Positions 4,290 to 63,383 of a DNA stretch of 64,000 bases are shown here, one piece after another (positions within the stretch are counted from its first letter, which is position 1; every line of letters starts with the position of its first letter). The translations under genes were made by a program, and so were the position numbers. This DNA is from Favolaschia claudopus (taxonomy: Eukaryota; Basidiomycota; Agaricomycetes; Agaricales; Mycenaceae), in contig JAWWNJ010000004.1 in NCBI GenBank assembly GCA_037176885.1, forward strand, positions 124,001 to 188,000, read 5' to 3'. The notes under the pieces were generated by a model. That model saw only the letters and a list, made by a program, of their open reading frames with translations, was not told the DNA's origin and searched no databases.

Positions 4290-7200
4290 TCAGGTTTGGC
4301 TCGCTCGCTTCCCGTTGGTTTCGACACTCCCACTCGAGGTAAACCGTAATCCCAAGGCTCTCGCAAACTTCCAATGCTTTTCCCGGGAAAGAGGCTTAGT
4401 AAGGATGTCGGCCACCATGTCGTGGGTAGACACATAGCGAATGACGGCCTCGCCTTTTGCCACAATGTCGTCGCGAATGAAGTGGTATTTGCGCTTTATG
4501 TGTTTGGTGCGTGCTCGGAAATGTGGGTCTCGACAGAGGATGATAAGTAGCTGCTTGATTATCACAGAAGAGTTCTGTGGGTCCGCGCTGCTCGTGGCCG
4601 ACTTCTGCAAAGAAGGTGCGCAACCAGGCTAGGTGCTGCCCGGCGTTTGACAGTCCAATGTATTCTGACTCAGTTGAGGACAGAGCAACCATGCCTTGCC
4701 GTTTGCTGGACCAGCCCAATGCTCCTCGACCAGATATGAATGCGTATCCAGAGGTGGATCGAGAAGTTTCGTCGTCACCAGACCAGTCGGCGTCAGAGAA
4801 CCCATGGAAGTCAAGATCCCCAGCGATGTCCGAGCCGTCGAAGCACAACTCAAGGTCGCGAGTATACTTCATGTAGCGCAGGCCACGCTTTGCGGCTTCC
4901 CAGTGGCATGCTTTGGGGTTTGCACTGTATCGTCCAAGCACGCCGACAAGGTATGCCAAGTCAGGTCGTGTCCCCTGGACAGCATACTGAATTGAGCCAA
5001 CCACAGTAGCGTATGACACTGTCTCTCCGTTTATGGTCTGTTGGAGCATTGTGGTGTTGTCGACGGGGTCTTCAGCAGTGAGGCGAGGGGTCGTAGCCAT
5101 TGGAGTCTTTGACGGGTTACAGTCTGCCATACCGCAACGCTTAAGGACAGCGTCAATGTACTTCGTTTGGGAAAGAGAGATAGTGCGTCGTTGTCGGTCC
5201 CGTTTGATCTCGATCCCGAGGATGAACGAAGCAGCTCCAAGGTCCCGCATCTTGAATGTGGATGCGAGGAGAGCTTTTACCTTGTCCATGTATGGACGGG
5301 ATGAGGCCGCAAGCAGTAGGTCGTCAACATAGACCACCAGGTAACATATCTCCCCTTTCTTTCCCTTGAAGACGTACAGGCATGTCTCCGCGTCCAGCCG
5401 GTATGCACCAAGCTCCAGCAGTTTTGCATCGAGAGTGACATTCCACACGCGACCGGCGTCTTTCAGACCATAGAGGGAACGTTTGAGTCGCCAACAGAAC
5501 CCATCTGGAATATCCACTCCCTCCGGCGGTGAGACGTAGATGGCGTCCTCGAGGACACCGTTGAGGTATGCGGTGGATACGTCCATTTGGTTCAGCTCCA
5601 GGTCGTACTTGGCAGCCAGCAAGCAGATGATGCGGATGGACTCAAGGTTCGCAACGGGTGCAAAGGTCTCCTTGAGGTTTCCACCCTGCTGTCCAAAATC
5701 CCGGGCGACAATACGGAGCTTGTATCGTTCGATGTTCCCCTTGCTGTCCAGCTTTATGCGCATGACTGGTTTGGTGCTGATTGGTTTGACTCCAGCGGGT
5801 GTGGGGACGATCTCATAGACATCGTTCTCAGCCAAGTTTCCCATCTCCTCAGCAAGGGCAGCCCTCCACTTTTCAGCATCTGGTCCGCTGAATGCCTCAG
5901 TAAGTGTAGCGGGAGTAGGGATTTCACTCGGGCCGCTATTGGCTACGCCAGCAAAGAAGGCATCGTCAATGTCAATGAGCTCGACTTCGGGTTCTTCCTC
6001 AATGATTTGTGGAAGGTCGGCGACTTGGAGGGGAGGGGATTCTGGCTCGGCCGGCTGAGGCAGCGGTTCGGGTTTCCGGAGCTGCTGAGGGCCATCTGAC
6101 TTTTGTAGGAGGTTTCGGTTTCGATCTGCTGGTTTTCTGACACGTTCTCCTCGTCGGAGCATGGGCTCGTCAGGCTTTGTCAGAGCTGGGACCGGTACCG
6201 GTGGCGCGACGACGGTGGGTAGTGGACGTGGTGACGCAATGGGATTTTTCCTGCGGGCAATGTGCTCAGAGATGGAAGTAGGGTTTACTGGGACAGGAAT
6301 GCGAGAGGGTGTTTCGCGTTTTACTGTGCTGATGGTCTCTGTGTCTGTCTCCCCCCCTTGCCGAATGGAAAAAGTCTCTGGTGCTCCCACTGGCTCGACA
6401 TCGTCAATCACGCTCCCACTGTCTGAAGGCTCCCTCTCCTGTTCGGGACGGAACAAGAACTCCCACTGAGTTTGGGGTGCAGGGTCCTGAAGGATAGAGG
6501 TGTCTGTTTCCCCTGTCTCATCGAAGCGGACATGTCGGCTGTGGAAGATAGCCTTGGTCTCTACATCCAGGAGGCGATATGCCTTCTTCCCATCCCCCAC
6601 ATCACCATTACCATAGCCAAGCATGATGCACCGGCGGCCACGGTTGGAGAACTTCCCAACGCGCTTGTCCTTTGGTATCAAAGCGTATCCCGTGCAGCCA
6701 AACGGTCGGAACTGAATGGGATCCACCTTTCGCTTGAACAGGGTCTCGTATGGTGGTACGCCGTTATTGGAGGAGTATGGACGGCGTCCGAGAACGTAGG
6801 AGGCACAGCTCATGGCTTCCTTCCAAAAGTTTTGTGGAAGGCCTGAATCGATGAGCATGGTGAGGGCGGTGGAAACAAGCGTCTGATTTGCTCGTTCAGC
6901 TACACCATTCTGCTCGGGTGTGTCTGCGGCAGTTGTGTGATGGATGATTCCGCTGGCTTTTAATTCTGCCTCCAGTTCGTTAGAGGTGAACTCCCCCCCG
7001 TTGTCAGTGCGCCAGAAATCAATGAAGTTTTCAGAGAATATTATCTCCTCAATCTCCTCCTCAAAGAAGGCTTGCACGTCTGCCTTCCATTGTTTGAAGG
7101 CGGCATGCACGTCACTCTTCTTCTTGAGATAGAGTACCCAATCGAAGCCACTGTGATCGTCAAGGAATGTGATCCAGTAACGATACCCGTCTCGAGACTG

Positions 7201-52589: not shown

Positions 52590-54370
52590 TATTTGCACTT
52601 TGTATTCCAAATTTAAATTTTGTCCTTAAACACTCTGCGCATACCCTATATTGAGATAACCCGTGGCGAAGCACGGGCTCACTGCTAGTTCAACACAAAT
52701 GACGACGAAATACCTGACACAAGGTCCTGAGCAACATCATGAATTTCAAAACCTTCCCTCTGCACAGTGTAAAATGCAGCTTGATCCTTGAATTGTACAA
52801 TTCCTTCTCTTGCCGCGCTGAAGCCTGACACCGATGATCTATCCGACTTTTTGGCAGGAAATGATACAGTAGGTGGCTCTTCCCCAGTACTGCCACGTAA
52901 AGAAGCGGTTGGTCACGAGGTTAAATTTACCTCAAGGTTGCCTTGAGCCTGAGCGATCTCTGTCGATTTGAACGAAATTGTACAATATCTCAACACTTTA
53001 ATACATATACGACTCGCACTCAGACATGCATGAAGTACATACCACGAGACAATTCAATGGCAAGTCAATTTACTGCTAACTGCGGAACATAGGGCGGGAT
53101 CCCTTTTTTTTCCAAAAAAGGTCACTTTTTGATGCTTTTTCGTATATCGCCCGTATCTCGCTCAATTCTGCTCCGTTCCCCTTCGGAATAGGCCCAAAAT
53201 TTTTGCATTCTATATCCGCACCCGCCCGGGCACACGAATATATTTTATAGTGGCGGGAATTATGTAATACAGTGTTGCCGGTACTTTTCAGACTGTAATT
53301 TATATAACATTTCTCTTGCTGAATTTAGTAATCAGTGTCTTCACGTCTTTCTTTATCAGTGTCCCATATCACAACTCTTTTTAGATTGGACCAAGGACTT
53401 GAAGAATCCACAGCAAGGCAGCGTAGCTGCTAGGATAATGCTGCAAAATTGAGTCCTCAAATGCAGGAGGAAAATTTGAAAACAGCCTGTTGAGAAGAAG
53501 CAAAAAAAGTCAACACGTTACCCGGCAATAAGAAATGTTTCTAACCAAGTTCAAGAGCAATTATTACTCGCGGAAGCTCCCGCTCCCAAACCACCAGGCT
53601 TTTTACGGGATAAAAGGCGCTGCGCGGGGTCGTACAACTGAGAGCATGGGCTGCACTCAACGGCAAGGCTGGACGGGTAAATGAGCGAGTTCAAAATTCT
53701 GGTACGCACCCCTGGCACGAGGAGGTGAGCCAACGCGGTGGGATATGGAGGCGGAGAGAGACGGCGCAGCATGGTACATAAAGAAACTTTACCGAAAAAA
53801 TAACTGTTTCGTTGATATCAATATTAATGTTGCGAATTCCGCAGCAAAAACAATACTCAAAGTTCTTAGACGCGCATAAGGAACGACGCGCGAACTCGCG
53901 CTCGCCCATTGTGTGCGTCTAAATCATAGCTGTAGTTCGCTTGCTCAATGACGGTCACGCAGTAGTTACTGTATTTCTCGCTCGCGTAGTCACTTGGCGG
54001 ATGCTGCACGGGCGGTAACTTCAACTTGTCCGTGCCGCCGCCGCCACCTGTTCGTCACTTGGTCCCCTCAATTCTCGGCTCACCTCACTTTCGAAAATAA
54101 ATAATTGCTGCGCCTATCAATGAGTTGACAGATCTCGGAGGTAAGGCCGAAAACGGCCAGTATTTATCCCACCACCCATTCTCTCATGAGTGCTTACGGC
54201 TCGCGAGTCCAACGCGTCGCGTCGCGTCGTGCTCGGATGTTCGGCTAACATTCTAAGCTTGGAACTGCGCCGCGCTGCTCAGAAAATAGACACGGGACGT
54301 ACTTGGAGTATCGCTAATCAATAATCACAACATCCTGAACCTTAATACAACCTTAATCGGGTAGCCACAC
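52590..54370. other. Long non-coding stretch
   Basis: No gene recognised on either strand. Features: short hairpin TTTTTTTTCCAAAAAAGG at about 53,105, a GCCGCCGCCGCC run at 54,030, and GCGTCGCGTCGCGTCG at about 54,212. Confidence 0.5.
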
Positions 54371-54373
54371 CTG

Positions 54374-54693
54374 ATGCCTCGAGCCTTCACGAAGGAGCGC
54401 GCGCGCGACGATGCAGAGCAGCAAGCAGACGAGTTACTGGTATTATCTCTGCTGCTTGAAGAAGATGACGATCTGGAAGCTGAACTTATGGGAATAGATC
54501 TCGCTGATGAAGAATTGGATGTCTGGGATAGCAGCCTTCTTGCAGACAACGAGTTGACGGAACTCCTGGAGCTGGTCGCCCTGGATTGGATGGAAATTGC
54601 AGCATACCTTGGCGACACATCTAGAGGGCCATATAATGACATTCCCAAGTCTACAGATTTCTTCTCTGTGCTACTTTCGAAATATGTTTTGGT
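54374..54693 (+). pseudogene. N-terminal fragment of a Harbinger-type transposase
   Basis: ATG at 54374. Acidic, Leu-rich start (TKERARDDAEQQADELLVLSL, LLEEDDDLEAELMGIDLADEE), then LVALDWMEIAAYLGDTSRGPYNDIPKSTDFFSVLLSKY. This is the N-terminal layout of basidiomycete DDE_Tnp_4 proteins. The coding sequence is cut by the MULE-type element at 54,703. Beyond its right end (63,384 on) I do not see the catalytic domain, so the fragment was probably dead before or soon after insertion. Confidence 0.5.
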
Positions 54694-54702
54694 GAGTGCA
54701 AA

Positions 54703-54727
54703 GGATAATTCTATTTGGGAACCCCAA
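54703..54727 (+). repeat. MULE terminal inverted repeat, left
   Basis: GGATAATTCTATTTGGGAAC and 5 more bases; reverse complement of 63350-63374 with one mismatch. Confidence 0.93.
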
Positions 54728-55147
54728 GTTTTCGGCTAAGGGGTTCCCAATTAGAAAGAGTCTATTTGGGAACCCCCACGTGCTGATATTTTCTCTTATC
54801 TTTCTTATCTTTCCGGAACGTCTTTCCCGCAATCTAATCAAGTGCGATTGGATTTTAGACTTTTGCTGAGACTTTGTCTGTGTCCCCTTCTTTTCCGCTT
54901 GTCCTTAATGTCCTTTGTCAAACTGGGCACCTGAGTTCATGATCTAATGAGCCCCAGCATGCCAAGTAGTTCTGACTTCAATTCCTTTGGCCTATGTTCT
55001 TGTCCAACCGCTTCTCAAATGCCCTGTGTTTCATCAAGAGATTGATCCCAATGCAGATCAGCTATACGCAAACGGGCTTACAAAATTTCAGATAAAGCGG
55101 TGACTCAGAGTGGGCATTTGTCTGCTCATTCCTCTCATTTTACTGTC

Positions 55148-58100
55148 ATGTCAGTCGCCTTAAGTTTTGACGCCTATTCTACACCTTCCCCTGAGGAGCG
55201 GTTCTCTGCTGAAAGTGTTGGCAATCTGACCTTCGGCGAGGCAGCCAGTATGCTCCTACAAAATCGGCTTCCCTTAATTCTACCCAGGGACAGCATCATC
55301 TCCTGGGTTTTCCATGATCGTGTCCCCACCGAACCCGAAGCTCTTACCCTTGCCGACAACGAGCCTATCCCGCATCGGGAAGACCTTTTGGCAATCACTG
55401 AGACGTGGGAGACGGCTTATGCGGACAGTGCTCGCTCTGTGTATATCGACCTTCCGAATCTCGAGCGTCCAATGTGGTACCATTTCTCTAAAGTATGTGT
55501 CACTCTCTGCTTGAGATGACTTGAGAGTGATTTTCTCTTGCTCGATATTGCAGATTCGACTCATTCGCAATGCCAATAACCACTTTCCACACCTTCTCGC
55601 CGCTTCTGGTATCTTTAAGCGCATCCAAGCTTCCCCATCGCCTATGCTACCGCCAGAGTGCATTGAGAAGCTCGAAGCTACTCGACTCATGGAGCCTCTC
55701 GCGGGATTTCACGGTACTCACACTCCTCTGCATACTCTGGGTTGCCTCCTTGATGAGCAGTGGGCAAGCGAAGATGTCCTCAATGCTGCTGCAGAGATGA
55801 TGTACTTTTATCGCGGGGTGATGAAGGAGCTTTGCGGTGATCCCTCCTTCCTGTTTCTTCCTACGCTGTTCATCAACGAATGTCGTCGTGTCTGGCTCCT
55901 CGATGAATCTATCCGTGGCTATTCTCAGAATATGATCTGGGTTCGTGAACGGATTCGAGCAGGGAGGGTGCACGGGATTGGCATGCTCGTTTGCACCAGC
56001 AATCATTATTCCGCCATCGTGAAAATTCGCCTTGATGAGTTGGAGCATGGCGATTCTCTCCACCTTCCTGCGCAATCCGACCTGCTGCCGATCCTTCGCT
56101 GGGTTTTTGCCGGCCTGGGCGCCTTTGACCCAGGAAATTCGCAAGCACACATCAAGCCTGGTCTCATTGATCGCCAGAGATCATTGGCGGGAGAAGGGAG
56201 CTGCGGAATAGCGGCATTAAACTTTATTGCATTTCGCACCGGAATGCAGACTCCACGCTGGATGGCGGACGAGTCTCTCAGGTTCCGCGATGAGCTCTTG
56301 CATGCTCTCCTTCGCTATCATCTAATCGCGCGGCAGAAGTCTACGGTACTTTCGATTTTGTTTCTCTCTTGCAGTCATGTCACTCACATTGTCTTCTTAG
56401 ACCTTTAGCGATTGGGTTGTGCTCTGCGCTTTGAAGGGAGAAGATGCCGAAGTCGCCTTCCCCATCGAGGCCCTGGGCGTTGCAGTGGGGTACTCAGATT
56501 TCAATCTCTATGCGTTGGCAGTAAACGTGAGGAGGTCCATGTCTCTTATGATTCGCTCATTTGTCTCACTTTTTTCCCCGATAGATGAGTCATCCGATAT
56601 TTGATTGGGCAATCGCGGTTCAGCAGCAGCACCCACCACACAATGGCGACCCATTCGCTGCTCCCACCGTCTCATCTGGCACGAACGCAGACCTACAGCC
56701 ACCTATTATTCTCAATTCTCTGCCTCAGCCTAAAAAGCTTGTGCCTCCGCTTCATGGCTTGACAGAAATCGTCCTCGAGGCTGGCTATGATTATTCATCT
56801 ATGTTTCCCCTGCCTGAGTTCGGGCCCGGCGAGGCTAAAAGCACAGACATAGTCGAGATCCCTGACTCTCCCCCCAAGACTCCCCCTCGCCGAATCAAGT
56901 CCGAGTCTGAGCTCATCGATCTCTGCAGTCCAGACGTCATTGATCTATGCACCCCACCACGACACATTGCCAGAACCCCACCACCGCGCCTCGCTACACA
57001 GAAAGACATTGTCGATCTTGGCCTGTCGCCACTTCGTCCTGGTGTGAAGCGCAGCAAATCCGCTTCTGCGAAGATTGAGCCGATCGACCTTTCCATTGCA
57101 TCCCCCCCGCGCCATAAAGTCAAACCTGATCCCACAGATCCTGCCCCATCTCGCAACCCACCCCTTCCACGCCCTCCTCCTCGTGATATCCGCGCCTCTT
57201 CTGGGCCGCTTCGCCTCAACGACATTTACGACTCTTACGAGGAGGCAGAGCAGGCTGTTTTCCGACACCACGAATCGCTCGGGTACAAGTATATCCGTAG
57301 CCAGCTCCGGCTTGATGAAAATTCGGGCCAAGCTCGACGCCGCACGCTCCGCTGCAATCGCTATAAAGATGCTGAGGAAACTCACCAGATCACCGTCGAT
57401 CCTGCAGACCACCGCAAAGGAAAATCAGGCCGCACGAACTGTGGTGCCCACGTTAACGTTGCGCTCATGCCGCTCGGGCAATGGCGGATTTCCAAAATCG
57501 TCGATACCCACAACCACGAGTCGCTGCCTCCAGGTGGACCAATCCAGCGGCCGCCTACCAAGCAGCAGCGTGAGACGGTTGAGAAGTTCGCCAACTCGGG
57601 GTTCACGCGAAAGCAGCTGGGATCCATTCTCGAATCGCGGGAGGCGGAGCCGTCGAAGACCCCTCTCGAGCCGCGCCAGCTCACCAACCTGCTGAATCAG
57701 GCAAGACGGGAAGCACGCGACGAAATCGAGCGTCTGGGCGGAGATATGCAGTCGATCCTTGCGTTCCTGGAGGAGGCAAATGCAACGGAGCCAGGATGGG
57801 ATTATTCGGTCCAGATGGATGAAAATAATGTTGTGACAGCTTTGTGGTGGCAGTCCCCTGAGCAGAAACGCCTAAGTCGCCGTCACACAGACATCCTGAT
57901 TAACGACAACTCCTATAACCGGAACGACAAGCAGCTGCCACTGTCGATCGGGGTCGTGATTGACTTGCATGCGCGTTCGCGCAATGCTTGGTATGCGCTT
58001 CAGAAAAAGGAGGACATTGCCTTTCACTCATGGGTGCTGCGCTGCCACCTCCGCGCTTCCGACGATGTCCATCCCGAGCTCTTTGTCTCTGACCGCTCAG

Positions 58101-59837
58101 GAGCACTGATTGCTGCTGTGGGGCAGGTCCTCATCTTCTCGTACCACATCTACTGCTTGTCTCATCTCATGGAGAACATCGACCGCAATTTGGGGCGAGC
58201 TCTCAGCGGAGACTGGAAGCCATTCCTGGGCGACTTCTGGTCTTGTTACCGAGCTGTCTCCCCAGAAGATTCGAGGCACAGTGGACTAGTCTCGTTCGAC
58301 GTTACACTCCAGCACGCCAATACCTGACAGACTTGTATGCGTGCAAGGACCGCTGGGCATGGGCATGGATCAGCTTGCGCTTTACCGCTGGTATTCGCAC
58401 CAATGGGAGAGTAGAAGGAGAGAATCGCATCACCAAGGGACTCGGCGGACCGAAGACCAGCTTGTACCAGCTTTTCATGGCGCTCAATAGCCGGACCCGA
58501 GAGCAACAGCGCAACACCGACATTTTGGTTCGTGAGGTATGCTTCTCTTCCTCTTCCCACGACCTCCCTTCTTCTCGACTAACTGTCCTGACAGGCTTTG
58601 CGCAAGCAGCACCCGGGTCAGGTTGAGCAGCTGTTCAAGCCTCTGCTAGATCTGGCCCGACAATATCTCGGACCTTTTGCCCTTCAAACACTCTTCAAGC
58701 AAATGGGGGAAGCGACTTTCTACAGTGCCTCTGCTTTGCAGCTGCCTGCAGGAACCCGCACTTGGGTAAGTAATTCATTGCTCTTTCTTAACTCGCTGCT
58801 CATCAAGAAGTCATAATAGACCGAATATGCCATCGCTGTCGATACAAGCGAGCCAGGGTATAACTGGGAAGCAGGGGAAGAGGTCTGTCGATCGCCAGCC
58901 ACAATCTTCACAATCTTCGTCTAAAGCCTTGGATTAGGAGTCCCTTCGAAACAACTTTCAAAACGACAATGCATACATCGGCACACGGTTCTTACTGCGT
59001 CTCGTCCAGAATCAGGGATTAGTGCCGACACATGTGCTTAAAATCGCTCATCTGCGGACCGAGGCAGCGCATATCCTTGTGCTGCTGCCCGATGGACGCT
59101 ATATGTGTGACTGCTGTATGGGGACAAACCTCGGGGTTGTATGCCGACACTACCTTGTTGCCTGGTTGAAGATCCCTGGGCTACCTTTCCACGTCTCTTT
59201 GATTCGAGCCAGGTATGTCATCCTCCAACCCTAATGACATGCAATTGCCCCTTCTGATGCTCGTATCCCAGGTGGTTGATTGACTCGAAGTTAGATACAG
59301 CTCGAATCCCCCCCGTTACTTTCACCCCCGGTGTTTCCAGCCTCTCTATCCGCTTTTCAGCCCGGGAGCTTCCTGCTTCCGCTATTTCCAATCCGCTCGA
59401 TACAACGGTTAACAATCCCACACCTCCTCCCCCAACAAGAACAATCTCGCAGCGACATGCCTACTCCGAGCTTCAAGCGGATCTCGGCTTCTTGATGAGA
59501 GGTATTCAAACCCAGGAACAGCTCGATGACCTTCGCGCTCGATTGGACCGGGTTGGGTAGGTGCTTTCTCTCTTGAGTATCTCACTGTACCAAATTCAAT
59601 TTCGTCAGGCGAGAACCCGAAGAGGAAAGAAGAAGAGAAGCGATTCATGACCCACCAACAATATCTCGAACTGGCAGACCACCGACTCAACGTCTGACTG
59701 GGCCGACTGAGGGTCGACCTAGGGGAGGTGGAGCTAATATCCAACCTCCTCCAAGCTCCCAGGTTGCGAACAGAAATAGGTGTGGGCTTTGTCAAGAGAG
59801 AGGACACAATCGTCGCAGTTGCCCTCTGAACAAATGA
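55148..59837 (+). CDS. Ulp1-type cysteine protease fused to MULE transposase (one frameshift in this copy)
   Basis: Nine exons; introns 55493-55553, 56346-56400, 56527-56584 are all phase 0, then 58537, 58766, 58883, 59213, 59557. About 1,412 residues if one base missing near 58,270 (SPED|FEAQW) is allowed. Protease part: His in NHYSAI, Asp in EHGDSL, Cys in GEGSCGIAALNFI (residues about 270-360). The transposase part begins at MSHPIFDW and has Pro-rich IPDSPP motifs. A FAR1-like region follows (YDSYEEAEQAVFRHHESLGY, RTLRC, HNHE), then the DDE core (ILINDNSYNRN, LFVSDRSGAL, TNGRVEGENR), SWIM finger CDC...VCRHY and knuckle CGLCQERGHNRRSC ending at 59837. The two halves could instead be separate genes if 56527-56584 is not spliced. 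Confidence 0.88.
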
Positions 59838-60104
59838 AAAACCTTGCTTATGTTCAGATTCATGTACTCATGTACTCGAAGTACTCATATCCTGTCTTAT
59901 TACTTACGCAGTGGGAAAATGCCAATCTCTGACGGTCTGACCGGAATACTCGCAGAACATTCAATGCAGTCTCAATGCAGTCTTATCTTGATTTGCTTTG
60001 CTGAAAGTTATGTTAGAGAGCTGTGATATGAACCTAAGGAGACTGTATGCTAGAGATATATATGAGGAATCTTGAAGGTTAGCCTTCCTAGGACTAATAA
60101 AGAT

Positions 60105-60605
60105 TTCGCTCCCAGCGGGCTTTTGTTGATCCTTGTTTACCTAGAGATCAAAAGCCACTTGGGCTTGCCCTTGGGGTAGGCTTTAAAATGAAGTTAATCT
60201 GAGGAGACAGAGTTAAAGTAAATGTAAAACAAAGCCTTTTGGCTTCCTAGAATAGTGTGCCATGAGTATCAAGTTTTCGCTCTTGAGACACCCTTTGTTG
60301 ATCCCTGTTTACTTAGAGATCAAAAGAAAGTGGACCTTGCCCTTGGGGTAGGCTTTAAAATGAACTTGTTCTGAGGAGACAGAGTTGAAGTAGATGTAAG
60401 ATAAAGTCTTTTGGCTTCCTAGAATAGTGTGCCATGAGTGTGAAGTTTTCGCTCTGGGGCACCCTTTGTTGACCCTTGTTTACTGAGAGATCAGAAGACA
60501 GTTGGCCTTGCCCTTGAGCTAGGCTCTAAAATGAACTTGTTCTGAGGAGACAGATTTAACGTAAAGGTAAAATAAGGCCTTTTGGCTTCCTAGAATAGTG
60601 TGCCA
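60105..60605 (+). repeat. Tandem array of about three 172-bp units
   Basis: Landmarks repeat at 171-172 nt: GGCTTCCTAGAATAGTGTGCC at 60,241, 60,413 and 60,584; TGAGGAGACAGA and TTGTTGA(T/C)CC(T/C)TGTTTAC likewise. Units differ by a few bases. It fills most of the spacer between the two MULE genes, ending about 25 bp before the second start codon, so it may act as promoter or terminator. 59,838-60,104 is AT-rich with no gene. Confidence 0.9.
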
Positions 60606-60629
60606 TTAGAACCAAAATTTCCATGAGCT

Positions 60630-63227
60630 ATGTCTGCGACTGAATGTGTGACAGGTAACGATCATGTGATGTTACTGTCACCAACTCGAACTTGTTTACA
60701 GCTTCGACTCTGCTCATGCCTGAGTTCTGTGAAGCACTGGTCTCAGCCCTACTGTGCATATACTTTCTCAACTCTTCTCCCCCTGGCTCTCTCCTGGTCA
60801 AAAACCTCTGGGCTGATGCTACAATAGCTGAATCCACTGATCACCCTGAAGGCTCAAGAGCTGCTCTGGGACATGTTTACCCTCTGGAGTCGACCTGCAC
60901 AGCGCTTAGAGGATCTTCTGATGCTCAAACCCCTCTGTACCCACCTCCTTTTGCTACAAAACTTGACGATCCAAAGGATCCACCCATTCCAATCATCAAA
61001 AGAGGCTTGACTCTGGTGGAGGTGGAGACTCACCCTAGGAACGTGATCTTGAGATTCAAAGACAATGTTTCTAAGGACTGCTGGTGTCAGGTATGGTGGG
61101 ACTCTTGAGATAGACTCCAGATCTAATCCCACTTTCCTTCCTCAGGTACAACTCCTAAAGCATACAGTCGCCCAGGCCTTTTCAAAGAAGGACTGGGATG
61201 AGGCTGTATGCAAGGTCAATCGCGCTGATCGCGGCTTCAAAGTCGGCCTGGCGTTCGAATTTGAAGACTATGTCTTAGCTTTTCTAACGCTCGATCTTTT
61301 AATCCAAGTAAGTCTGCTTTCTTTCCTTTGCTCCTCCTTGCTGAAGCTATCTTCCCTTCAGTTCCATTGGTCTGCCGACCGAGCCTCTCTCGCTAGCCAG
61401 CCCGATGTCTACCTGAATTTTCCGCAGTTTCTGGACGATCTTGTCAAGTGGATCACCAAACGTCGCGGCCAGCAGACTGATCGGTCTGGAAATGCGATGA
61501 CAGCTGTCCGCACCAGCACTGAAATCTTCGCTGGTGCGGGGGTTTATACAATACCTGAACTCTGGCACATGGCTGGTAAGTGTTATCGGAATTTGAGATT
61601 GCTCTTTGAGTTAAATGTCTTTCAGGTCTAGCACCGAACCTCACTGAGGCTGAGGTCTTTGACTCGCCCTCCCGCACAGCCCGGCTCTGTGCTGCTTACT
61701 ATCATTTCGGTAAGGAGGCGCACACAACGCTGTGGTAAGTGATTCGACTTTTCGTTTTTTCCTTTTTTGGAAATTTTTCTGCGTTACGATTTCTCCTTTT
61801 TTGGAAATATCTGACTATTGGCATGCAGGCCGCTGGTCAAACGCTTCCTCGTCGGATTCGTGATCTGCGTCAGCGAGGAGGACAGGTTGCTTTATAGCGA
61901 CCGCCTCAATGTCCATGGGAAAGACCGATCTTACGTCTCCGCGCGCTTTCAAGAGCTGCTTTCGGACCTTGAGGTATGAGCTTGCTCCCTTCAATCTTCG
62001 CTTTGCTGATTGTTTGCACAGTTATGCTTCGAGTGGCATGCTGATGACCCATTATGGGTTAGGCAGTGCGACGAGATCGCTGGCCCATTCGACGTTTTCG
62101 AGCCCGAGCTTATCCGCCATGCCCTGGAGATCGAAGACATGAATCTAGGGACTTTGATCTTTGGTGCTGACCACTGGGCATACCTTTGCGCTGACGCTGG
62201 CCTTCCCGCCGCATGTGTGTCCAGCTGGAATCCACTTGCACATTATTATTCCACCCTTTCACGTGAGCGTCTGCTCCCTATCTATTTTCTCATGCTGATT
62301 CTCTTTCGCAGTCCCTTCTGAGATGGCGTCTTCGTGGCTGAACATGGACAAGTATACCTATTTGTTCCATCCGAGCAGCCAGAGGAAGCCTCTCCAAGCA
62401 TTCCACCCTCATACTCAACTTTACCGTCTAGCGAAGGCAGACATCTGGTCAGTAATCCCCGCATTCCCTGACAACTCGGCGCCAATTCCCCGTCGTCGAC
62501 CGCTGCTCAATCCTCGGGAGCCGAAGCCGGAGGTGGAGAGCTCCTCGCCCCCACCAATTCCTGCGAAACCTCCGCCACCAGCAAAACGCGGGAAAACCGC
62601 GCGCACCTCGCCAAACGAAGTCGAAGCCGAAGCCGAAACCGAAACAAACAAAACCGCAACCGAAGCGGTCGCCTCCTAAACCCAAACCGTTAGCACCGCT
62701 GATTCCGAAACCGACGCCTATTGAACTTTCGACTTCGTTCGTTCGCGAGCGCGCCCTCTTGTCTTACATCATCAAGTATACTCAAGAATACACGGTTGGG
62801 CCACTGGATTATTGCGGTATGGCCCGTCGAATCAAGGGTCGTGGCGAAGATGTGTATGTGTTCTCTCGCTTCGCTTTCTTGTGCTTTCTTGTGCATGCTA
62901 AACCTATCTATTAGGATTTTGTACTGTCAATGCGACCCCCGGGTGACGGAGTTTTACCTTCGCCGTCACGCTCTCTCCATCGCAACTGCGAAGCTCAAGG
63001 CGAAGGGGGTGGAGAAACAGGGACTTGGGAGCAAGGTGCTCGGAGCGGTGGAAGGGAAGGTCGCAAAGGTCGCAATGGCTCAGAACTCAAGTGCGGCTGC
63101 AAAGGAGAATTTGCCCGCGCCGAAGATGCCCCCCAAGAACAAGAAGAAGCGGCATTCAGCTGATCGGGACTTAGCGGAGGTGGGATTGGTTTTATCTCCC
63201 CGAAAACGTAGACGAGTTATAGATTGA
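60630..63227 (+). CDS. Second MULE gene, 696 residues, unknown function
   Basis: Ten exons (introns 60655, 61091, 61308, 61576, 61735, 61974, 62263, 62533, 62854, each with GT-AG ends and matching phase) sum to 2,091 nt with no break. Residues about 130-470 look like a compact, mostly helical domain (VQLLKHTVAQAFSKKDWDEA, FEFEDYVLAFLTLDLL, FPQFLDDLVKWITKRRG, WPLVKRFLVGFVICVSEED, FEWHADDPLWVRQCDEIAG, FEPELIRHALEIEDM). Then comes a Pro/Lys-rich linker (KPKPKPKQTKP) and a basic C-terminus with PPKNKKKRHS and SPRKRRRVID, likely nuclear-localisation signals. I recognise no domain. Its place inside the terminal repeats, on the same strand as the transposase, suggests a transposition or regulation partner. 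Confidence 0.8.
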
Positions 63228-63349
63228 ATTTATTTTTTTGCGGCACTACGATCTACTATTGCTACAATATCATCTTATCTTATCTGCTTGACTTTGTCTA
63301 TTTGGGAACCCCAAGTTTTGTTTGGGGTTCCCAAATAAGCCCCACGGGT

Positions 63350-63374
63350 TTGGGGTTCCCGAATAGAATTATCC
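63350..63374 (-). repeat. MULE terminal inverted repeat, right
   Basis: Reverse complement starts GGATAATTCTATTCGGGAAC; followed by the target duplication GAGTGCAAA. Confidence 0.93.
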
Positions 63375-63383
63375 GAGTGCAAA

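Follow-up and report, generated by a model that had tools for sequence, protein, structure and literature searches.

A mushroom Mutator-like element with a predicted Ulp1/SENP-fold protease joined to its transposase and a glycosylase-type second gene

Mutator-like elements (MULEs) with Ulp1-like (ULP) protease domains are known from plants, where Kaonashi-type elements carry them, as a sequence-only reading of the DNA described here had noted (PMC6117577, PMC2528002; these and all other sources cited are represented by the available parts of their texts). ULP-carrying plant MULEs hold the domain in both orientations, with or without terminal inverted repeats (TIRs). It is in direct orientation in grapevine, melon and rice MULEs, and within TIR elements in grapevine and melon; KI-MULEs, with their KIU genes, are non-TIR elements whose ULP gene runs in reverse to mudrA. 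In grapevine the transposase precedes the ULP, and Ulp1 is also found in plant CACTA elements (PMC6117577, PMC2528002). Here, we describe an element from the mushroom Favolaschia claudopus, whose assembly (264.6 Mb, 460 contigs) was searched for relatives. It lies in a 64,000-nt stretch, C4:124001-188000, referred to as the window. Like the Kaonashi and other plant ULP elements, it is a MULE with an Ulp1-type domain. Unlike Kaonashi, it has TIRs, a protease on the same strand, upstream of and spliced to the transposase, a linker with motifs of the SUMO-interacting motif (SIM) type, and a glycosylase gene; neither Kaonashi hallmark, the lack of TIRs or the reversed ULP, is found in the window element.

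Proteases of ubiquitin-like proteins accompany other transposases as well. Mutator elements with Ulp1 are reported from hydra, lancelet, melon, rice, maize and Arabidopsis, a legend in the same paper names the Ulp1 of "Mutator TPases", and Ginger1 transposases have a C-terminal Ulp1 or OTU domain; that paper proposed a role in transposition (PMC2836005). The window element likewise has such a domain on its transposase, but those elements come from animals and plants, the Ginger1 domain is C-terminal, and neither a SIM array nor a glycosylase is mentioned in the available part of that paper. Oomycete Cryptons with a C48 peptidase also bear an Ulp1-type enzyme, but they are tyrosine recombinase elements, and the peptidase is an additional protein in some (PMC3212892). 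A survey of eukaryotic MULEs describes a similar sub-group, including Basidiomycota, with FAR1 in half of its members and CCHC, C2H2 and SWIM fingers; the words protease, peptidase, SUMO, Ulp1 and Kaonashi do not occur in the available text of that survey (PMC6446971). Fungal DNA transposons with TET/JBP dioxygenases are also found in mushrooms and also carry a DNA-modification enzyme, thought to be anti-silencing, but both the enzyme and the transposase lineages differ (11 are named, MULE not among them); in the available text, Ulp1, protease, SUMO, Mutator and MULE are absent, and MuDR appears twice, in one passage on plants and oomycetes (PMC12730594). VANDAL elements of Arabidopsis resemble the window element in being MULEs that carry an extra gene as well as tandem repeats without coding function; the repeats are targets of the anti-silencing protein VANC, which differs from the extra gene here in that the available text does not describe it as a glycosylase (PMC5735166, PMC10398659). 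According to a 2026 review, some VANC genes have an Ulp1 domain, and the elements are able to hypomethylate their relatives (PMC13317346). Our searches of the open-licence literature, which leaves most subscription journals outside, found no MULE recorded with a SIM-type linker or with a DNA glycosylase; as far as those searches go, the protease-glycosylase enzyme pair is unreported.

What does the window element encode? We propose, with a rough probability of 60% for the explanation as a whole, that it belongs to a mushroom MULE family in which gene 1 encodes an Ulp1/SENP-fold protease, a SIM-type linker and a transposase, and gene 2 encodes an Fpg/Nei-fold glycosylase. The mobile unit, the order of its parts, their conservation and their predicted folds were established by the analysis, and we regard the unit and architecture described here as close to certain. 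The sequence-only reading had placed one fused gene at 55148..59837. This interval does lie inside the element, but the element is larger and has a second gene; it spans window positions 54703-63374, and the Ulp1-transposase gene covers only part of it. The ends and gene 1 are as follows.

54694..54702, no strand: left 9-bp target-site duplication, GAGTGCAAA, identical to 63375-63383
54703..54727, + strand: left TIR, GGATAATTCTATTTGGGAACCCCAA, 25 nt, 96% complementary to 63350-63374, with similar ends in other copies
54703..63374, + strand: complete MULE, 8672 bp, from TIRs and target-site duplication
55148..55492, + strand: protease exon 1, start MSVALSF, from a GT..AG splice reading; the start agrees with relatives
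55554..56345, + strand: protease exon 2, with His266, Asp282, Gln323 and Cys332, from the splice reading and alignment of relatives
56401..56526, + strand: protease exon 3, from the splice reading
56527..56584, + strand: junction intron, phase 0, 58 nt, at the same position in other subfamilies
56585..57190, + strand: linker of ~200 aa with low predicted-structure confidence (pLDDT), with SIM-type IVEI, LIDL, VIDL and IVDL and psi-K-x-E/D sites IKSE, AKIE and VKPD, from motif scan and predicted structure
57191..58327, + strand: FAR1 and MULE (DDE) domains; the frame changes near 58.27 kb and ends at the stop 58325-58327, from Pfam, frames and copy comparison
58328..59837, + strand: remaining transposase in other frames or exons, with the region of the third acidic residue (from 58399), the SWIM motif and the CCHC knuckle; exon limits are inferred
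63350..63374, - strand: right TIR, from its inverted-repeat match to the left end
63375..63383, no strand: right 9-bp target-site duplication, GAGTGCAAA, a perfect copy of the left one

Other distinct copies with like ends have target duplications of their own: CTATGTATC at C98, CTTTTGTGG at C69 and CCGTTTTGC at C14. Hence, a perfect 9-bp duplication flanks four distinct elements, including the window copy; a fifth, at C18, has like ends, and its duplication, AAAGACAAG, is longer by one base on one side. The ~9-bp duplication and the MULE domain together identify the element as a MULE. The FAR1-DDE-SWIM-knuckle organization proposed from sequence was confirmed from 56585 onward: Pfam finds FAR1 (E 6.2e-10) and MULE (PF10551, E 3.1e-9, above cut-off), followed downstream by the SWIM-type motif CDCCMGTNLGVVCRH and the knuckle CGLCQERGHNRRSC, for which the zf-CCHC_2 match (E 0.002) is below the family cut-off. 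A Gly-Gly between FAR1 and DDE, present in 38 of 42 relatives, could be a cleavage site or a plain structural feature.

There is evidence from several directions that protease and transposase form one old fused gene. The phase-0 GT..AG introns at 55493-55553, 56346-56400 and 56527-56584 were verified, with the transposase exon beginning at 56585. No in-frame stop lies inside the last intron, where the sequence-only reading had looked for one on retention; its 58 nt would shift the frame, with a stop just downstream at ~56602-56604. The deposited F. claudopus protein R3P38DRAFT_2598331 is identical to the window protease, and the deposited model P0001 (691 aa) unites protease and transposase exon in one protein, with 100% identity over the 421-aa protease. 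Deposited models also run from protease through linker to FAR1 in Mycena vitilis, M. polygramma, M. crocata, M. latifolia, M. galericulata and M. alexandri, and in Tephrocybe, Candolleomyces and Hygrophoropsis; in all, models of 12 of the 34 aligned relatives reach FAR1. Because gene models are predictions, the DNA of individual loci was inspected. The junction intron was seen in 15 of 19 loci (14 with a protease exon ahead and one, L019, without), at 52-61 nt and with a length that varies modulo 3 (60 nt in L025 and L027, 61 nt in L026 and L028); splicing therefore keeps a single frame. An ATG directly follows the junction in nine loci, the window and eight others. It is missing in six (L016, L017 and L025-L028), where HPIFDW or HPIFGW is kept, and likewise in the Mycena models, where HPI(F/H/Y)(D/E/G)W is kept in the protease's spliced frame. 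Protease and transposase identities also covary (17 sequences, 136 pairs, Mantel r 0.90, p<=0.0005). The models, the frame-keeping junction, the loci without an ATG and the covariation support one old fused gene, and, as predicted from sequence, a single fused protein is very probably its normal product.

Some observations weigh against this view. Models of 22 of the 34 aligned relatives stop before FAR1, many of these being short contigs or single-exon calls, and the window copy itself is frame-broken. Its transposase frame is lost near 58.27-58.33 kb and continues in the 58093-58626 frame; the stop (58325-58327) precedes the region of the third acidic residue at 58399. The one-protein fusion first read from the window is real at the level of the family, but the window copy does not encode it whole. 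The break is shared by the neighboring copies L021 and L022, whereas in other copies the frame around the domain stays open over a long distance, e.g., 771 aa at C69. An unannotated intron was rejected as the cause because relatives are collinear there and the eight other copies in which both landmarks matched (L009, L011-L014, L019, L020 and L023) are one base longer between them.

The protease was identified through its fold and conserved catalytic residues. Pfam, run on the protease exons and on the complete spliced protein, found nothing for the protease; the C48 family (PF02902) gave no match to the window protein at E<=10 and a weak one (E 0.054) in 1 of 34 relatives; a PDB sequence search returned only four peroxiredoxin rows (E 0.21 or worse); and profile searches with A1 and A2 each gave one match (E 0.72 and E 1.5), both taken as chance. 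The identity of both genes was settled by fold comparison. The predicted protease structure matches the catalytic fold of Ulp1/SENP-like (clan CE) proteases; Foldseek ranks SENP/Ulp1 chains first and a NEDD8 protease 24th, and SENP/Ulp1 folds are far closer than adenain. His, Asp, Gln and Cys follow in clan CE order and are at least 90% conserved in the 34 aligned proteins. Among 18 loci scored (L018 without its linker, L034 for these residues alone), 17 keep them. The UniRef name of P0087, a deposited model from the same contig, begins "Ubiquitin-like protease". The C48 assignment of the sequence-only reading failed the Pfam check, while fold and catalytic residues do favor a C48-type enzyme. 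The domain is probably an active protease of ubiquitin-like proteins, and SUMO is its somewhat favored target. Two points speak against these assignments: P0083 (Candolleomyces) has Tyr at the catalytic Cys position, and the fold scores of SENP and NEDD8 proteases are level.

The linker adds a second possible connection to SUMO. SUMO-interacting-like motifs include ELIDLCSP, DVIDLCTPP and KQEVIDL, and, in other fungi, VITIESDSDSEDQE and IIVLTSDSEDD. The patterns counted are what we take to be the SIM and psi-K-x-[DE] definitions. Of 18 proteins, 12 were pooled (P0012 and P0016 end within the linker; P0029, P0035, P0037 and P0038 are models without protease). The pattern [VIL][VIL][DE][VIL] occurs 29 times in the 12 fused linkers (2314 aa), compared with 1.9 expected and a maximum of 7 in 1000 shuffles, and psi-K-x-[DE] occurs 22 times, compared with 3.4 expected and a shuffle maximum of 12. 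In 20 disordered gene-2 tails, the counts are 1 compared with 1.6 and 4 compared with 5.5. Six linkers read from DNA (window, L009, L012, L016, L025 and L026) have two to four strict SIM-type motifs each, and two or three psi-K-x-[DE] sites each except L025, which has none. Several features temper the enrichment: the reversed SIM pattern is enriched too (8 compared with 1.8 expected, maximum 6), 2 of the 29 matches fall within the HPIFDW block, the 12 linkers are mutually related so that counts are not independent, and counts are uneven, with P0096 and P0016 at zero by the strict pattern. The enrichment suggests that the linker may bind SUMO. The CtBP-type PxDLS motif was considered as a source of the linker motifs and put aside. 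In L025, a perfect 155-bp tandem duplication (5877-6186) lies in the linker, and the linker frame meets a stop.

Gene 2 and the repeats before it occupy the 3' part of the element.

60122..60606, + strand: 2.8 copies of a 172-bp tandem repeat, lying between gene 1 and gene 2 at the border of the exchanged 3' module; 171-bp repeats are likewise present in L009 and L016
60716..62596, + strand: gene 2, Fpg/Nei-fold DNA glycosylase, exons 60716-61090, 61146-61307, 61362-61575, 61626-61734, 61829-61973, 62022-62262 and 62312-62596, from our gene model
62597..63227, + strand: C-terminal remainder of gene 2, which the window copy has in a different frame after a change near 62596, from frames and copy comparison

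The predicted fold of gene 2 is that of Fpg/Nei proteins (N-terminal sandwich plus H2TH), with a NEIL1/Fpg match over 257 residues. The N-terminus reads MPE..E, with P2 in 29 of 32, E3 in 30 of 32 and E6 in 30 of 31 of those among 35 aligned relatives that have a letter there; the N-terminal Pro nucleophile and Glu of Fpg/Nei are thus present, and the host Fpg exon has MPEIAEVER. Gene 2 shares with NEIL1 and Fpg (MutM) this fold, this N-terminus and an H2TH-like motif. It differs in its extra disordered tail, in being transposon-encoded, and in several features that count against the assignment: GxGN reads GAGV, in which Val replaces the Asn of the host's canonical Fpg; neither the catalytic Lys nor the zinc finger was located; and PF01149 and PF06831 are absent from the 14 Pfam families hit by the 35 relatives at E<=1. 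A glycosylase-type activity is a reasonably likely prediction from the modeled fold. Window and C69, C98 and C18 are 67-70% identical over long 5' stretches (71-78% over shorter ones), whereas from the repeats onward the 3' module is 93-95% identical and the gene-2 introns 95-97%. This contrast points to a recent swap of the glycosylase module among elements whose transposases are old and differ from one another, and the module border falls at the 171/172-bp repeats.

How general is the pairing of protease and transposase? Of 44 MULE hits, 20, mostly higher-scoring, were fetched at 10 kb, and the protease is upstream on the same strand in 17 (exon 3 only in two; none in L013, L019 and L024). 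When protease exon 2 was searched genome-wide, it matched within 4 kb upstream of 37 of the 59 transposase loci, in 23 cases at a distance of 180-256 nt, and 20 of the 44 Pfam MULE-domain hits have a protease within 6 kb; these pairing counts are lower bounds. On the other side, the remaining 22 transposase loci lack such a match, and for 51 of the 88 protease loci no transposase was matched nearby. Ten of the 22 resemble a single non-autonomous lineage: where they match the window transposase their identity to it is mostly 84-96%, nine have in common an internal gap (~codons 162-212), and an in-frame TAG occurs in nine. The ratio of nonsynonymous to synonymous substitution (dN/dS) indicates strong constraint on the protease between older copies, tempered by the saturation of several distant pairs and by higher values between recent copies, 0.23-0.69 over the full protease, based on few changes (L009-L011 at 0.69); L016-L018 is an exception at 0.05. 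In-frame stops counted along with these ratios were set aside, as they may stem from introns. Protease loci on C136 and C264 were considered as a second element type and set aside; the single one read, L033, has a protease and SIM-type linker, with no transposase among frames of at least 90 aa.

What might these parts do together? The disordered linker could bind SUMO or be sumoylated itself, which would bring the transposase to SUMO-rich, silenced chromatin or to repair sites. The protease domain might strip SUMO-like tags off the transposase or its neighbors, and the glycosylase, carried in the same mobile unit, might excise modified or damaged bases; jointly, these activities would aid expression and movement of the element. 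The interpretation in the sequence-only reading, that removal of SUMO- or ubiquitin-like tags or self-cleavage helps transposition or escape from silencing, is in part supported; escape from silencing as the purpose is tentative, at somewhat less than even odds. A more specific version, an anti-silencing kit in which the transposase, equipped with a cis-acting deSUMOylase and a SUMO-reading array, gets into SUMO-marked heterochromatin and strips those marks while the Nei-type glycosylase removes modified cytosines, perhaps at the 172-bp repeats, is speculative and rather unlikely. Cytosine marks in the host are plausible given 36 DNA methyltransferase-domain matches in its genome, many of them fragmentary. 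If the kit were real, it would be convergent with plant Ulp1-carrying VANC elements and fungal TET-carrying transposons. The job of Ulp1-type domains on plant and animal transposons is so far unproven; here, such a domain is joined to a transposase and SIM-type motifs and travels with a glycosylase-type gene, so that purified parts would allow a direct test of whether transposons use SUMO and base excision against silencing. Surveys by domain would tend to overlook both enzymes, because Pfam recognizes neither in the proteins tried, apart from one weak C48 match among 34 relatives.

Other explanations fit some of the same observations. Protease and transposase could be two proteins from adjacent genes, with the fusion an artefact of gene models and the transposase starting at the ATG of 56585. 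The ATG after the intron in nine junction-visible loci fits this, but the six loci and the Mycena models that lack it still keep the HPI(F/H/Y)(D/E/G)W block in the spliced frame, that frame is constant although intron length modulo 3 differs among copies, and several deposited models are fused; two separate genes are improbable. Slightly less probable still is that the protease is passive cargo with no role in transposition, like many gene fragments in MULEs, where capture of host genes is frequent (PMC6446971, PMC2528002). Transposase loci without a protease match, the lost Cys of P0083 and recent-copy dN/dS of up to 0.69 are what cargo would leave behind, but older copies are strongly constrained, protease and transposase descend together across species, 17 of 18 loci keep the catalytic residues, and ten of the 22 loci without a protease match look like one non-autonomous lineage. 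Self-processing of a polyprotein at the Gly-Gly, as adenain-like enzymes cut viral precursors, is comparably improbable: the Gly-Gly is absent from 4 of 42 relatives and may be a plain FAR1 or linker feature, and adenain is by far the more distant fold.

A protease acting on NEDD8 or ubiquitin instead of SUMO is unlikely, though less so than the preceding alternatives; SUMO-interacting-type and SUMO-acceptor-type motifs are over-represented in the linker, and the NEDD8 protease is 24th in Foldseek, behind SENP/Ulp1. For gene 2, ordinary base-excision repair at transposition intermediates, or a guard of the element's DNA against deaminated or oxidised bases, unrelated to silencing, is a serious possibility a little short of even. 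NEIL1/Fpg enzymes are repair glycosylases, and the gene-2 fold matches them; nothing direct speaks against repair, and the repair and silencing readings both fit.

The element family has left further traces in the host. Three MULE hits lie ~41 kb apart, at C4:181899 (window 57899), 222790 and 263789. The neighboring copies L021 and L022 bear a target duplication identical to that of the window copy, which looks like a tandem segmental triplication with a decayed third copy. At C18:663896-663944, two elements of this family stand end to end with 25 bp between them, and at C136:605740-606915 (L037) a cytosine methyltransferase-domain match shares an open frame with a protease remnant, taken as chance. 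The insertion in the window split an open frame (54365-54739), which contains the target duplication at 54694-54702, and the deposited models P0002 and P0087 fuse the interrupted frame to the protease.

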